IMG/VR virus record: IMGVR_UViG_3300046694_000164
Span: 1-62,545 of that record
Strand: one strand, 5' to 3'
Length of the DNA stretch: 62,545 nt
Source: a virus
Below, in pieces: positions 40,354 through 45,982 of the stretch. Each line of letters begins with the position of its first letter. Position 1 is the stretch's first letter. Both the position numbers and the translations under genes were made by a program. The notes under the pieces were generated by a model that made no database searches, had not been told where the DNA came from, and worked only from the letters and a program-made list of their open reading frames with translations.

Positions 40354-42714
40354 TTAAGCATCTTCTAATATTCTAGGTGCATTTCGGTCGCTCCATAGTC
40401 GCTTTACCTGCCGACCGTTGGCTGTCTTCACGATGCCCTCAACGACGTTCCCGGCTTCCACTAGCTGCTCGATGATGTCGTGCATGCGACGTCGATCCAT
40501 AACGCCGTTGAGCGAACGCGCCACCTGGTTTGCAACCGTGCCGACGCCACCAGCGCGATTTATGATGGATCTGACACGCTTGTATTCAGCCTGGCGATCG
40601 TTGTCCGCCATACGCTCCTCGGCCTGCTCTATGAGCATAGTAGATGACCTCATGGCCACCTCTGCAGCCCATTGCATTATGCCTTCGGTGATTACCGGCC
40701 TCTCCGGATCCGCGCCGGCTGCAACAATCAATGCAAGGCGCATGCTGTTCTCCGCAACACGCGCATATATCGGCTCAAGATCCTTCGATCCAACATCCAT
40801 TGTCTTGAACATTCGGTCTACAAGCATGTCAAAAACACGCTTAGCTCCATCTCCCCATGTTGCCTTTATTGTCTTGCAACTGGTTGTTCCGTTCGACGTC
40901 ATGCCATTAAGTTTTACACCGAACTTATGGACCACAAAGTCCTGGATTGCCTCTACCAATTGCGCTGGCGGATTATCCACGTTGCATGGCGGATCGCGAG
41001 GGGGTGGCCGCTGTGTGCCCGCGTCTAACATGATGAAGCGTGGAAGAAAGCCGTCTGCAACGCTGCCGCTGGCCAGCGCCTTCCAGAATGCGTCCGGTGT
41101 CGATGTGCCATAGATGCAGACATTCGGGTTGTGGATCGGCTCGGCAAGATTCTGCGCGTAGTCTGCGCCCATGAAGATAGACGCTGCCGTTCCGGTCATC
41201 TCGAGCAAGTCTTCCGCGATTTCCTTCTCATGGTTGCCAGACTTTGGCGATGTAACCTTACGCATAAATCCGCCGAACTCGTCGATCATGTAGACAAGCG
41301 ACGGGTTCTGCTTGACGCGGTTTCGCAGGGCAGAAGATGACGATATTTTGTTACCGCCAAAGAATTTTGCGAGAGTGCCGCTTGCGCTGGCTAGCGATTT
41401 AATCGCCGCTCGCGGGTGCTCCTTGCCGAAGCCGGATGCCGCCAATCCCACCACATAAACGTTGGATCTAAGTTTCGTCGGTCCTTCATATCTCCGCCCA
41501 GCAAGCGCGCCGACATAAGATAGAGCTGCCCCAAGATTTAGTGTCGGAGACGGATTGCGTGCCGTTCTGTTGATCCAATTCACGATATCTCCGACCAGGC
41601 CTGGGACTTCGCACAGATGCGGCGGCAGCCCGTCTCCGGGCACGACGACTGGCAGTTCCTCGTAGTCTTCAGTATCGCCTGTGTCGACTTCTTCTACAGG
41701 TGTCGGATCGACCAGTTCAGCCTCATCGACTAATACCTGCCCTTGCTTCGCATATCCATTGCGGATCACGCTGGCGAAGTCGATATCAGGAAGCCACGGA
41801 TCTACGTAATCAAGCTTGTTCTTCAGCCACGCTAAAGCATCCATGTCGGACATGCCGCGGGCCTTCATGACGACATCGATAGGAGTTAGGCCCATGTCCT
41901 GCGCCATGTCCCTGATGCCGTCCTGATGGAACGACACGTTGAATCCGTCACCACCTCGCCAGACGGCCGCGCCTCTGTATGTTCCGCCTGGCGATCGCTT
42001 GGCAAGTGGAATGCCGAGGTCCGGAACCCACATGTCGAGATTGGCAAGCGCAAGATCCTTGATCTCGCGCCACACACTATCTCCGGCCTCGACGCCAATG
42101 AAGTCTCGCTTTACCTCCTCCTCGGTGAAGCCAAACGGCTCAAGCGCCGCCGCTATTAGATCCGCAACATTATTAGGCAACTCAGGAAGGTCGCGGGGCT
42201 CAAGATCGGCTAGGGAATCATCGTCTATCCATACATATGGCTGCTCTGTTTCTGGGTGGATCGTGGGCGGCAGCACAGTCTGCCTGCCCTTGGCAAGAAG
42301 ATCAACAGCCCGAACAGCTTTTGCGTGGCTGCTTGGTTTGATGTTGAATGGCCTCGATACGATATCGGGCGATCCTCGATAGAAAACTGAAAAGCCCTTT
42401 GCTCCCCGCTTGCGCACGCTGGACGCCGGGAGCGCCGCCATAACAGCGTCGATCAATGCTTGGTCATCAGAGTCGATGTCAACGACTTTGATGGTGTCGT
42501 CGAGGACAATGCACACGCCAGAATCTGGCCATTTTGCCCAAATCGGAACCTCGTATTTCGTCGGTAGCCGATCGCCGAACCTTTGCCAGTCGTTTTCTCC
42601 ATACCATACCTTGCTGACGTATTGTCCTGGACGCTTCGATCCGGGGAGAACAGGAATTGCAGAATAGCCCATATCAACAAGGCGTTGGGCAACCTGTGCG
42701 TAGGGGCTATTCAT
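40354..42714 (-). CDS. Primase-polymerase / DUF3987 helicase fusion
   Basis: 786 residues. The N-terminal 230 residues are a Prim-Pol domain: IKVVDIDSDDQALIDAV (catalytic D-x-D) and RAVDLLAKGRQTVLPPTIHP. The C-terminal half is a DUF3987-type ATPase with Walker A VGLAASGFGKEHPRA and Walker B VYMIDEFGGFM, and a winged-helix end. Fusions of this kind act as replicative primase-helicase in phages and plasmids. The gene ends 2 bases from the iteron block. Confidence 0.85.
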   Translation of the reverse strand: MNSPYAQVAQRLVDMGYSAIPVLPGSKRPGQYVSKVWYGENDWQRFGDRLPTKYEVPIWAKWPDSGVCIVLDDTIKVVDIDSDDQALIDAVMAALPASSVRKRGAKGFSVFYRGSPDIVSRPFNIKPSSHAKAVRAVDLLAKGRQTVLPPTIHPETEQPYVWIDDDSLADLEPRDLPELPNNVADLIAAALEPFGFTEEEVKRDFIGVEAGDSVWREIKDLALANLDMWVPDLGIPLAKRSPGGTYRGAAVWRGGDGFNVSFHQDGIRDMAQDMGLTPIDVVMKARGMSDMDALAWLKNKLDYVDPWLPDIDFASVIRNGYAKQGQVLVDEAELVDPTPVEEVDTGDTEDYEELPVVVPGDGLPPHLCEVPGLVGDIVNWINRTARNPSPTLNLGAALSYVGALAGRRYEGPTKLRSNVYVVGLAASGFGKEHPRAAIKSLASASGTLAKFFGGNKISSSSALRNRVKQNPSLVYMIDEFGGFMRKVTSPKSGNHEKEIAEDLLEMTGTAASIFMGADYAQNLAEPIHNPNVCIYGTSTPDAFWKALASGSVADGFLPRFIMLDAGTQRPPPRDPPCNVDNPPAQLVEAIQDFVVHKFGVKLNGMTSNGTTSCKTIKATWGDGAKRVFDMLVDRMFKTMDVGSKDLEPIYARVAENSMRLALIVAAGADPERPVITEGIMQWAAEVAMRSSTMLIEQAEERMADNDRQAEYKRVRSIINRAGGVGTVANQVARSLNGVMDRRRMHDIIEQLVEAGNVVEGIVKTANGRQVKRLWSDRNAPRILEDA

Positions 42715-43454
42715 GCTGCACTCCTCCGGTTGGCACCGTTCTCTATAAGCTTACGTGCCAAGTCTTTCATTTGCTCGTCGGTAGGATACGGGCCGTGGTA
42801 ATTGTACCTTTCACTGGCTCTACCCATTCTCGGCCTATCAATGCGCACGGCATCACCATCCACCGGTGGCTTCCACTGGACAATGTTGCAGGCTTCGCGC
42901 CACACGTCCTGTGGTGTCGTGTCACTGATGCGTGACAGGTGGTGATCTCCGTCGTGCTCGCCTCCGATACGGTATTGGTAGCTGCCGCATCTTGCTGCAT
43001 AATCTAGGCGGTTGAGACGACCGAAAAATAGATCTGCGACATCGTGATGGCCCATCATTTTCTCCAAAGCCATGACGCCGAGTGACCACGAACCTTCGTT
43101 CTCAAATGGTCCGTTGCCGATGACGATAATCTCGTACTGCGGCGGCGGAGAGAGTGGCCCTGACGGCTTATTCTCACAGACTGCTGAGGCAGTCTTGAAT
43201 GCCTTCGCCGCTTGCGCCTTGGCCTGGGTCATGGCGCCTGTTTCTGTTTGAGCAAAATTAATCGGCTTAACCTCTACCAGAGTCTTGATCTTTCCTTTCA
43301 ACATGAAATCTGGCGCCCACCCATCTAAGTCGAATGGTTCGTAATCCCATCCCCACCCGCACAAATCGAAAAAAGCAGCCCACTTCGCTTCAAGGCGCGA
43401 CCGGAACTGCACACCAGCGTAGATGGTCGGGATTGCTTTGATATCGTAGCTCAT
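42711..43454 (-). CDS. PD-(D/E)xK restriction-endonuclease-like phage nuclease
   Basis: 247 residues. AGVQFRSRLEAKWAAFFDLC, then WDYEPFDLDGWAPDFMLKGK and KTLVEVKPINFAQTETG: the E, D and E-x-K of a PD-(D/E)xK core. A longer helical and beta tail follows. The ATG overlaps the stop of the frame at 43451-44449, which supports expression of that frame. Role in DNA processing likely but unspecified. Confidence 0.65.
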   Translation of the reverse strand: MSYDIKAIPTIYAGVQFRSRLEAKWAAFFDLCGWGWDYEPFDLDGWAPDFMLKGKIKTLVEVKPINFAQTETGAMTQAKAQAAKAFKTASAVCENKPSGPLSPPPQYEIIVIGNGPFENEGSWSLGVMALEKMMGHHDVADLFFGRLNRLDYAARCGSYQYRIGGEHDGDHHLSRISDTTPQDVWREACNIVQWKPPVDGDAVRIDRPRMGRASERYNYHGPYPTDEQMKDLARKLIENGANRRSAA

Positions 43455-44449
43455 GCTGCTTCCTTGGTGTCACCGAGCGGTGAATTGTCGTTGGCGGCGG
43501 GCATCGATGTACGCTTCGATGAAGCCGATCGCCTGTTCGGCATTGATTGCATTGCCATAACCGCGCAATCGTCCCACTCTGGCGGGAGCCCCATGAGCCA
43601 GCGGGAATGTGCCGGGTTCAACTGGCCTCCACTTTTCATCCCGGCAGAAGAGCCAGTCAGGATCTCCCCAGAGGCCGTTAGTCGGGCTGGGCCCGCTATT
43701 GCTGCGAAATCCTGAAGTCGCTGCTGGTTCTTGCTTCCGTCCTCCCGGTACATCACTACCGGACGCGCGGATCGATCGTTGTTGCAACTCGTTGTCGGCC
43801 AGCCCGAAACTGACGCCGCGTCCGCTAGGTTGAGACCGAATCCCTTCTCCTGTCGCCTCTCTGGAGTTTCGCCTTTGCCATGATTTGTCACCGTGCAGGT
43901 CGGCCAACCCGACAACATCTGGTGCGCAAACTCGCTCAGCGGCTTGCCTCGCGGATGCGCTGCCCGCTTCCTGTAGTGCTCCTTCGACGCCGAATTGCTC
44001 CTGAAGTCGCGAGCAGCAGGCGTCGGCCTGGCCGACGCCTCGTTCTCCAATCCAATAAAGCCGTTGCCGGATGTGGGGCGCACCGAAGCCCGCAGCGCAG
44101 GTATCAACCGCCCCGAAGGCGTATCCCGTAGCTTCCATGTCAGCTTGTACAAGGTCGAGCCAAGCAAGGCCGTCTTTGCTCGCAACCTGTTCGCCAAGGA
44201 CGACTGCAGGCTGGCACTGCTCGATGAGATAGTGGAAGTGCGGCCAGAGGTGCCGCTCGTCATCAAACCCTGCTCCTTTGCCTGCCGCGCTGAAAGGCTG
44301 GCAAGGGCATGATCCTGTCCATATGGCCGCGTCGTCCGCCCATCCGGTTCGGCGGAGTGCGTAGCTCCAAACGCCGATCCCGGCGAAGAAGTGGCATTGG
44401 TTGAATCCTCTGAGGTCTTCAGGTCGAATATCGATAATTGAGCGTTCAT
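43451..44449 (-). CDS. Overprinted ORF within the C5-methyltransferase gene
   Basis: 332 residues in a different frame over 980 bases of the methyltransferase gene. Signs that it is translated: GGAGAGGTGG immediately before its ATG, a stop that overlaps the start of the next gene (ATGA), no internal stop over 1 kb, and a C-terminus SMPAANDNSPLGDTKEAA with the peptide typical of this genome. The sequence is serine- and arginine-rich (TSTISSSSASLQSSLANRLR) with blocks GPARLTASGEILTGSSAGMK and LNPAHSRWLMGLPPEWDDCA that I recall from other phage genomes. Function unknown. Confidence 0.6.
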   Translation of the reverse strand: MNAQLSIFDLKTSEDSTNATSSPGSAFGATHSAEPDGRTTRPYGQDHALASLSARQAKEQGLMTSGTSGRTSTISSSSASLQSSLANRLRAKTALLGSTLYKLTWKLRDTPSGRLIPALRASVRPTSGNGFIGLENEASARPTPAARDFRSNSASKEHYRKRAAHPRGKPLSEFAHQMLSGWPTCTVTNHGKGETPERRQEKGFGLNLADAASVSGWPTTSCNNDRSARPVVMYREDGSKNQQRLQDFAAIAGPARLTASGEILTGSSAGMKSGGQLNPAHSRWLMGLPPEWDDCAVMAMQSMPNRRSASSKRTSMPAANDNSPLGDTKEAA

Positions 44450-44540
44450 CCACCTCTCCAGGGGCTATGTGGCCCTCCTTGATTAGTTCTCGCAGCCAAG
44501 CTGCAGCGAATGGGTTGATCTCGTTGTAGTAGGCGCTCAA
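43470..44540 (-). CDS. DNA (cytosine-5) methyltransferase
   Basis: 356 residues from the TTG at 44540 (TTGA overlap with the previous stop). Motifs: FNQCHFFAGIGVWSYALRRT (motif I), WTGSCPCQPFSAAGKGAGFD (motif IV with catalytic Cys), VVLGEQVASKDG (motif VI, E-x-V), FGAPHIRQRLYWIGER (motif VIII) and GYGNAINAEQAIGFIEAYID (motif X). The region between VIII and X is the target-recognition domain and coincides with the overprinted frame. It would protect phage DNA from restriction. Confidence 0.88.
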   Translation of the reverse strand: MSAYYNEINPFAAAWLRELIKEGHIAPGEVDERSIIDIRPEDLRGFNQCHFFAGIGVWSYALRRTGWADDAAIWTGSCPCQPFSAAGKGAGFDDERHLWPHFHYLIEQCQPAVVLGEQVASKDGLAWLDLVQADMEATGYAFGAVDTCAAGFGAPHIRQRLYWIGERGVGQADACCSRLQEQFGVEGALQEAGSASARQAAERVCAPDVVGLADLHGDKSWQRRNSREATGEGIRSQPSGRGVSFGLADNELQQRSIRASGSDVPGGRKQEPAATSGFRSNSGPSPTNGLWGDPDWLFCRDEKWRPVEPGTFPLAHGAPARVGRLRGYGNAINAEQAIGFIEAYIDARRQRQFTAR

Positions 44541-44917
44541 AACGGCGCCTCGCGCAAAGCCTCCCGCACACCCTGAGCACAGCCTTCCCATGCTGCGCGC
44601 ACCAGCATTAACTGCATGAGCTCGTCATAGTGTGCTAGCTCGGTCACGCCACCATTGGCGGCGATCCACTCGCCGACGGCCTCGACGCCCTTCTCGAGCG
44701 CCTTCACTTCGTACAAGCTAATTCTGTCCAACTTCGTGAGGTCTCCTGTTGCGACGATACATGGCTTGCAGAGAAATCCTGGATCCTTTGAGCCCGGCGT
44801 GCTGCGGCCGAGTCCTATCGCGTACATCCCGCAAACTTTACAGACGGTGGGGTTGTGGTTTTCGTCAACCGTCGGTGTGAACGGCAGTATCGGGCGGCCG
44901 GTTGGGAGTTTGGTCAT
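44537..44917 (-). CDS. DUF6511-like zinc-finger phage protein
   Basis: 126 residues. VCKVCGMYAIGLGR and GFLCKPCIVATGDL form a four-cysteine zinc site; LYEVKALEKGVEAVGEWIAA followed by GGVTELAHYDELMQLMLVRA completes a pattern I associate with DUF6511 proteins next to phage methyltransferases. It overlaps both neighbouring methyltransferase genes, so it may act with them. Confidence 0.6.
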   Translation of the reverse strand: MTKLPTGRPILPFTPTVDENHNPTVCKVCGMYAIGLGRSTPGSKDPGFLCKPCIVATGDLTKLDRISLYEVKALEKGVEAVGEWIAANGGVTELAHYDELMQLMLVRAAWEGCAQGVREALREAPF

Positions 44918-45741
44918 GCTGCCACCGCGGAGGGGGTGGCTTGGGTGGGGGTGTTGTCGTTGTCACCGACTGGTGACGCGTCGAACATGCTAACCGGCTT
45001 CACCTTCTTCGGCCGGTCAACAAACATGTCACCCTGCGCATAAGCTTTCGCTATGCGGTCGCAAGCCACGTCGAAATACTTCGGATCCAGCTCAATGCCG
45101 ATAAACTTCCGGCCCATCTTGGCACACGCAACGCCAGTCGTGCCACTGCCCATGAAAGGATCTAGGATTGTCTGGCCGGGGTTGGTAAAGTCCTGCAGAA
45201 GCTCTCGCATCAGCGGGATGGGCTTTTCTGTGGGGTGACGGCCATCGCGGTCGCGCTGGTTGGTGAGGTGGGTATAGACGCCACGCTTGCCGCCTGCGTT
45301 CCATTTGGCGTGGCCGGTGCCATTCCATGCGGTGACGAAGCACTCCGCGCCCTGCCCCGGTCCCTGCCCGTTTAACTGCGGTGTCGCGTCAGGCTTAACC
45401 CACAGGCAGCCGCGCTTGTACTTCATTGGTGAGGCATTGATTGCTTCTGCCCAATATGCGACGCCTTCAATGGTGCAGAACGCGATAAACCAGCCGGTGC
45501 AGACGCGGTGGGCAGCATCTACAACTGACTGGCGGATGGTGTCGATAGAAGAGAAATCCAAGCCTTTTAGGTCTGGACCCTTATCTGCGCGGACCCGTCC
45601 GCGCAGACTATTCTTCGACGCATGCAAACTTTCTTCATAAGGCGGGTCGCTTATGACGTGATCGACAGCCTCCAACGAAGCCATAACCTCGAGGCAATCC
45701 GCATTATACAGCGTCGCATCGCCGATGCGCTCTACTCTCAT
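44914..45741 (-). CDS. DNA N6-adenine/N4-cytosine methyltransferase
   Basis: 275 residues from the ATG at 45741 (AGGAG 7 bases upstream). Catalytic motif DHVISDPPYEESLH (DPPY), target loop, HPTEKPIPLMRELLQDFTNP, and the SAM-binding motif ILDPFMGSGTTGVACAKMGR with FIGIELDPKYF. The order IV-then-I makes it a beta-class enzyme, shorter than the cell-cycle methylase CcrM and without its C-terminal domain. The C-terminus has GDNDNTPTQATPSAVAA. Confidence 0.88.
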   Translation of the reverse strand: MRVERIGDATLYNADCLEVMASLEAVDHVISDPPYEESLHASKNSLRGRVRADKGPDLKGLDFSSIDTIRQSVVDAAHRVCTGWFIAFCTIEGVAYWAEAINASPMKYKRGCLWVKPDATPQLNGQGPGQGAECFVTAWNGTGHAKWNAGGKRGVYTHLTNQRDRDGRHPTEKPIPLMRELLQDFTNPGQTILDPFMGSGTTGVACAKMGRKFIGIELDPKYFDVACDRIAKAYAQGDMFVDRPKKVKPVSMFDASPVGDNDNTPTQATPSAVAA

Positions 45742-45982
45742 TCTATATCTCCTCATGGTGACGTGTGGTGGTGGCCGTCTTGGGCTGGTTGACACCGATC
45801 GGGAACATTTGACGCTGGTGAGGCGCTTTTTGGTGTTTTGTTCCCGAACGGGTGCGTGGGTGGCCGGTAACTATCGCGCATCTCACATGCGCGATAGTTC
45901 GTTGTCGTCGTGGTGGCGCGTCTTATTGGTTAGATATGACGCGTGAAGGTTACGGGGGGGGTGGTGGGGCGTTATCTGACGA
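45742..45982. other. Structured gap with 12-bp perfect stem-loop
   Basis: No gene is seen. The gap holds a perfect 12-bp stem AACTATCGCGCA/TGCGCGATAGTT at 45869-45899 with a 7-base loop, and a second inverted repeat CGGGAACA...TGTTCCCG with a loop of about 32 bases at roughly 45808-45855. GCGTC/GACGC flank a third weak pair. No T-tract follows on either strand, so a regulatory RNA structure or protein site is more likely than a terminator. Confidence 0.45.

Follow-up and report, generated by a model that had tools for sequence, protein, structure and literature searches.

F2, a second long reading frame lying within the C5-cytosine methyltransferase gene (F1) of a phage, is a conserved overprinted gene under strong purifying selection beyond that of the F1 frame. 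F1 carries motifs I-VIII and X of these enzymes and lacks motif IX, and the most conserved block of F2 is probably that motif. The best explanation, and in our judgement the likely one, is that the two overlapping frames encode a single heterodimeric C5-methyltransferase; translation, complex formation, methylation and a part for F2 in target recognition are all inferred. The window referred to throughout is the whole stretch of viral DNA that was analysed, 62,545 nucleotides in length.

Organization of the locus

The two frames are on the minus strand and share positions 43470-44449 (980 nt), with F2 in the +1 phase relative to F1. The main features are:

43470..44540 (-), F1, C5-cytosine methyltransferase, proposed catalytic subunit; PHROG 363, PF00145; motifs I-VIII and X.
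43451..44449 (-), F2, ATG-initiated open reading frame of 332 amino acids in the +1 frame; PHROG 1008/31772; proposed motif-IX and target-recognition subunit.
44450..44459 (-), GGAGAGGTGG, resembling a ribosome-binding site, directly 5′ of the F2 ATG and within F1 codons.
43451..43454 (-), ATGA, at which the F2 stop codon overlaps the start of the next gene (42711-43454).

The F1 frame is open up to an ATG at 44591 (373 amino acids as listed) and ends at 43470 on the minus strand. Because homologues begin at the sequence AYYNEI, the start is more likely to be the TTG at 44540, which overlaps the stop codon of the upstream gene. F2 starts at F1 codon 48 (counted from 44591) and ends 19 bases beyond the F1 stop codon, and the sequence MPAANDN is present near its C-terminus. 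As the overlap begins before motif I, nearly the whole enzyme is covered by F2. An N6/N4-type DNA methyltransferase gene is found at window positions 44914-45795 (-), two genes upstream of the C5 pair.

A preliminary description, made from sequence alone, had reported the overprint of a C5-methyltransferase between 43470 and 44449 by a frame of 332 amino acids, with a sequence like a ribosome-binding site before its ATG, an ATGA junction and AANDN near the C-terminus, and all of this held. Two of its statements failed: that the overlap covers mostly the target-recognition region, when it in fact starts before motif I, and that F1 has all the main C5-methyltransferase motifs, when motif IX is missing. 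It had overlooked both this absence and the apparent supply of the motif by F2.

F1 lacks motif IX and, in its model, the small domain

F1 matched PF00145 (E = 4e-13) and PHROG 363 (E = 1e-83), and the hallmarks of C5-cytosine methyltransferases, motifs I, IV (PC), VI, VIII and X, are all present:

44367..44390 (-), motif I (FFAGIGVW), aligned to HhaI.
44289..44315 (-), motif IV with the catalytic Cys (GSCPCQPFS), aligned to HhaI.
44184..44195 (-), motif VI (GEQV; Glu134 and Val136 invariant), from alignment.
44055..44075 (-), motif VIII (HIRQRLY), from alignment.
43545..43571 (-), motif X (RLRGYGNAI), from alignment.
43704..43991 (-), residues 201-296 (numbered from the ATG at 44591), poorly conserved and predicted to be disordered, pLDDT < 50.

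When F1 was aligned with HhaI, motifs I-VIII and motif X matched, and nothing between them did. The structure model of F1 has a confidently predicted SAM-binding methyltransferase fold, with HhaI and HaeIII as the closest PDB matches and with residues 201-296 and 331-345 disordered. Residues 201-296 stand in the place of the small (target-recognition) domain of a normal C5 enzyme, and this domain is absent from the model. Motif IX was not found in F1, and by pattern it is absent from F1 in 265 of 266 loci. The requirement of a C5-cytosine methyltransferase for motif IX and a small domain in one chain is therefore unmet by F1.

A probable motif IX block in F2

Canonical motif IX is of the LTPRECARLMGFPDTF type and lies directly before motif X. 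A similar block in F2 sits over the codons immediately preceding F1 motif X:

43574..43621 (-), motif-IX-like block LNPAHSRWLMGLPPEW of F2, residues 277-292, identified by pattern and profile models.

A pattern search of 266 loci placed motif IX solely in F2 in 242 and in F1 in one; the other 23 failed the strict pattern, several of them having visible variants. Among Paenibacillus-type loci the motif was in F2 only in 59 out of 63. Two actinophages, Trax and Graduation, have the block (PQLEEWMMGFPPGW, SAEFYEWLMGLPRGW) in the F1 frame, adjoining motif X, and their +1 open reading frame ends earlier and contains the WPTP part only.

Profile models were also used. The initial motif-IX model, built with two actinophage F1 proteins among its sequences, scored above 5 bits in 69 of 85 F2 proteins, 2 of 1700 shuffled sequences and none of 35 F1 proteins. 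A canonical seven-sequence model without the actinophages was weak, with 13 of 85 F2 proteins above 0 bits. A canonical eleven-sequence model, also without actinophages, exceeded 0 bits in 65% of F2 proteins, 3% of shuffled F2 sequences and 6% of F1 proteins, and ranked the site first among about 280 sequence windows in 63 of 75 F2 proteins; the site for this ranking was chosen by an [MQ]G pattern, which is a mild bias. We conclude that the LNPAHSRWLMGLPPEW block of F2 is likely to be motif IX.

F2 homologues in phages and bacteria

In tblastn searches (E <= 1e-5), F2 matched 198 phage records and F1 matched 381, the surplus F1 records being mostly distant. F1 retrieved 80 viral loci, and every one has F2 in the same phase; an F2 profile retrieved 80 bacterial loci, every one of which has F1 (79 by the script criterion, and L196 on inspection of a split match). 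Both frames were present in 89 of 92 further loci, which included distant relatives. The preliminary description had claimed F2-like blocks in other phages, and this held, since essentially every relative has an F2 homologue that is open and of matching phase.

In distant methyltransferase relatives (26-30% identity to F1) the +1 frame is open and the layout is kept, with a TWPRSGMMRNG-like block followed by LWPTPxxxD repeats and then by GGxLNPxWVEWLMGYPxGWTDL. The same layout was seen in Paenibacillus and Bacteroides phages and in 63 analysed Paenibacillus-type loci. F2 is also open in relatives of 37-44% GC (L245, L246, L247, L243). Stops in the F2 N-terminus, or a single internal stop, were found in a few relatives (L052, L057, L005). 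The repeats of the window protein, whose copy number varies among relatives, are located as follows:

43790..44038 (-), WPTP-type repeats of F2 (RPTPAARD, GWPTCTVTN, GWPTTSCNN).

None of the loci examined had F2 without an overlapping F1. Because F1, or F2 profiles built from this group, served as the queries, a remote stand-alone relative of F2 is not excluded. Comparison of F2 with Pfam, NCBIfam and the PDB gave no credible match; its structure model was poor (pLDDT 62), and a fold search with it found no PDB match.

Some individual loci depart from the usual arrangement. In L038, L056 and L061, F2 extends 530-610 bases past the F1 stop codon, giving proteins of 465-492 amino acids with an extra C-terminal part. 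The whole F1 catalytic core is deleted in Dunaliella viridis virus SI2 (L235, 2335-2809), and the C-terminal parts of both frames are still open there, including the motif-IX block of F2. In the T4-like phage Krischvirus LF73P4 (L237, 1802-2658) the N- and C-termini of F1 are in different frames, as are those of F2; this frameshifted copy may be decayed or an assembly error. Salmonella phage SAP012 (L232, 2479-3299) has both frames open, yet no CDS is annotated over the pair.

Selection on the F2 frame

When the window gene was shuffled among synonymous codons, an equally long +1 frame was obtained in 0.4% of trials (p ~0.004). A single open reading frame at the 60% GC of the window is moderately surprising, and the proof rests on conservation across homologues. 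In 108 non-redundant F1 genes the +1 frame averaged 0.5 stops over the region counted, compared with 4.2 in shuffles, only 1.8% of which were free of stops; the +2 frame of the same genes contained 14.8 on average. Nearly all of the +1 stops in relatives are located before the F2 start or after the F2 end.

Third-base identity at shared 4-fold degenerate codons was determined for 74 representatives with less than 80% F1 identity. Before F2, identity was 0.29-0.34, which is near the background of 0.257 expected from composition. It was 0.34-0.39 over F1 codons 46-100, 0.58-0.78 over codons 100-185, 0.56 at codons 185-300, 0.68 at 300-320, 0.95 at 320-335 and 0.70 at 335-348. Since the identity rises past F1 codon 100, the sequence constraint from F2 acts mainly from about residue 55 on, and it is strongest at GGQLNPAHSRWLMG. 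The first 50 residues of F2 are weakly constrained and, given the weak constraint up to F1 codon 100, the F2 N-terminus is possibly dispensable. Over codons 185-300, conservation of F2 was slightly above that of F1 (22% versus 18%).

Canonical C5 enzymes encoded in the same bacterial genomes served as a control; they had 4-17 stops and null-like open lengths in the +1 frame, whereas the F1-type loci scanned alongside them had none. The +1 frame was closed too in NgoMIV-linked enzymes at 58-63% GC. The absence of F2 from relatives, its being full of stops there, or changes synonymous only in F1 had been named beforehand as refuting the overprint; each was checked across relatives, and none was met.

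Expression signals

At a conserved R[SD]I site of F1 the arginine codon is AGG in 31 of 69 representatives, compared with 7.8% of arginine codons elsewhere, and this AGG yields AGGAG ahead of the F2 start in many relatives. The Shine-Dalgarno position of the window locus differs from the R[SD]I site of the relatives. Among 64 relatives, the F2 stop is coupled to the next gene in 6 and the F1 stop in 30; coupling of F2 to the next gene through ATGA, as in the window, is not general. The earlier claim that F2 looks translated is supported by conservation, although translation itself is inferred. We consider it likely that F2 is translated from its own ribosome-binding site; the evidence is indirect, consisting of the Shine-Dalgarno-like signals and the ATGA junction, without expression data.

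The AANDN pentapeptide

The 62.5 kb window encodes the pentapeptide AANDN 12 times, using different codons, compared with 0-11 times in each of eight multi-megabase genomes. The sites in the window are:

2774 (+), AANDN.
6121, 8719, 10977, 11633, 37509, 43498, 49210, 51799, 54745, 55281 and 58535 (-), AANDN.

The preliminary description had put the pentapeptide in about twenty other proteins; this figure failed, as the window has 12 copies, of which about ten are close to a protein terminus. Most are 12-18 residues from the C-terminus, often ending in AA, and two are near the N-terminus (sigma factor, 8719 frame). The alphaproteobacterial ssrA tag begins with a similar sequence. The possibility that it is an ssrA-like C-terminal degron is weakened by the two copies near N-termini and by close F2 relatives without it. 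On a contig of about 100 kb from a Roseobacter MAG (L160/L162, G006:C18) the F1/F2 pair occurs twice, together with 8 of the 11 AANDN sites of that genome; because of this concentration, the AANDN habit may belong to a phage group.

A proposed two-frame methyltransferase

In the heterodimer model, F1 would be the catalytic subunit, with the SAM-binding fold, motifs I-VIII including the catalytic Cys, and motif X. F2, initiated separately at the internal ribosome-binding site, would supply motif IX and, through its WPTP-repeat region, probably a large part of the target-recognition domain. The two polypeptides would assemble into an active enzyme, as reported for M.EcoHK31I, and overprinting would ensure that the subunits stay linked and are expressed together. 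Supply by F2 of the motif absent from F1 would explain why the overprint exists. The biological role is likewise inferred: methylation would probably shield phage DNA from host restriction or mark it. The assignment of F2 as the recognition part is an inference from its position and from the disorder in F1, the model of F2 itself being uninformative. Against the heterodimer it can be said that no expression, interaction or methylation data stand behind it.

The alternative that survives best, which we nevertheless regard as unlikely, is that F2 is translated and selected for a separate function, for example as an inhibitor, an anti-restriction protein or a DNA-binding regulator, its likeness to motif IX being coincidental. 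The lack of a recognisable fold in the F2 model and of a Pfam or NCBIfam match is compatible with this. However, F1 accompanied F2 wherever F2 occurred among the examined loci, the best-conserved block of F2 is the very motif missing from F1, this block shifts into F1 in the actinophages, and motif-IX models score it above shuffles.

Much less likely still is a ribosomal frameshift fusing motifs I-VIII of F1 to the C-terminus of F2 in a single chain with motif IX. Frameshifting would place motif IX on the chain with the catalytic motifs, and the indel in Krischvirus (L237) does rearrange the frames. But the fused chain would be without motif X, which is conserved in F1, and F2 has its own start with a Shine-Dalgarno-like bias.

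That F2 is an untranslated by-product of GC-rich codon usage carried by conservation of F1, an idea left some room by the window frame alone, which is not decisive (p ~0.004 for its length under synonymous shuffling), is all but eliminated, an artefact of GC content or codon usage being ruled out by 4-fold site conservation, the few stops in relatives, F2 frames open at 37-44% GC and control enzymes closed in +1, with about 15 stops per gene in the +2 frame.

The heterodimer model can be extended to a bolder reading, in which overprinted heterodimeric C5-methyltransferases are an ancient class, common to phages and prophages across many groups of bacteria, F2 is an exchangeable specificity subunit composed of WPTP repeats and motif IX, and the overlap of about 1 kb ranks with the longest same-strand overprints that are deeply conserved in dsDNA phages. 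As a joint claim this could as readily prove wrong as right. The preliminary description had suggested that, with both frames translated, the overlap would be one of the longer overprints known in a dsDNA phage.

Implications for annotation and assay

Gene callers keep one frame and drop the other, which leads to annotation as a methyltransferase without motif IX or as a hypothetical protein. Epsilon15, N15 and many others carry F2 without an annotation. Should the two proteins form one enzyme, assays in which only one frame was cloned or recoded would score it as inactive, or would have unknowingly expressed the second subunit. The family forms a natural series, from motif IX in frame in the actinophages to motif IX in a second frame, that bears on the origin and upkeep of an overlapping gene.

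Comparison with known systems

The large polypeptide of M.EcoHK31I (YGGCCR) keeps motifs I-VIII and X, and the small one carries motif IX (PMC3404938, citing Lee, Kam and Shaw 1995). In M.EcoHK31I, as in M.EaeI, an alternative frame within the large gene encodes the small polypeptide. F1 and F2 appear to have the same distribution of motifs, with F2 nested in an alternative frame. M.EcoHK31I is a restriction-modification enzyme, and its predicted target-recognition domain is in the large subunit (PMC3404938), which counts against a recognition role for F2; in F1, by contrast, the corresponding stretch is disordered, and F2 is a protein of 332 amino acids with WPTP repeats. M.AquI (CYCGRG) is likewise a two-chain C5 enzyme whose smaller polypeptide carries motif IX, but unlike in the F1/F2 pair the small subunit holds motif X as well (PMC3404938).

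Another protein hidden in a different frame of a phage methylase gene is the ShiLan element, an out-of-frame HNH endonuclease (PMC11855218). That element is a mobile insertion; F2 instead lies over conserved methyltransferase motifs and is a fixed feature of the family.

No paper on the F1/F2 overlap, or on motif IX in F2, in phages was found in the open-access literature searched. PHROG 363 (F1) and PHROG 1008 and 31772 (F2), all of them matched by the window proteins, are all labelled 'DNA methyltransferase', and they are kept as separate families whose entries are silent on the overlap and on motif IX. ORF30 (C-specific methylase) of Escherichia phage K1ind3 and the nested ORF29 ('Mte8-like') are a homologous pair with both frames annotated, and that record states neither a function nor a relation between ORF30 and ORF29. 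Thus the splitting of motifs between two polypeptides, the annotation of both frames in K1ind3 and the existence of F2 as a PHROG family were already known; the spread of the pair over several hundred phage and prophage loci, the depth of its conservation and the link between the PHROG families of F1 and F2 are new.
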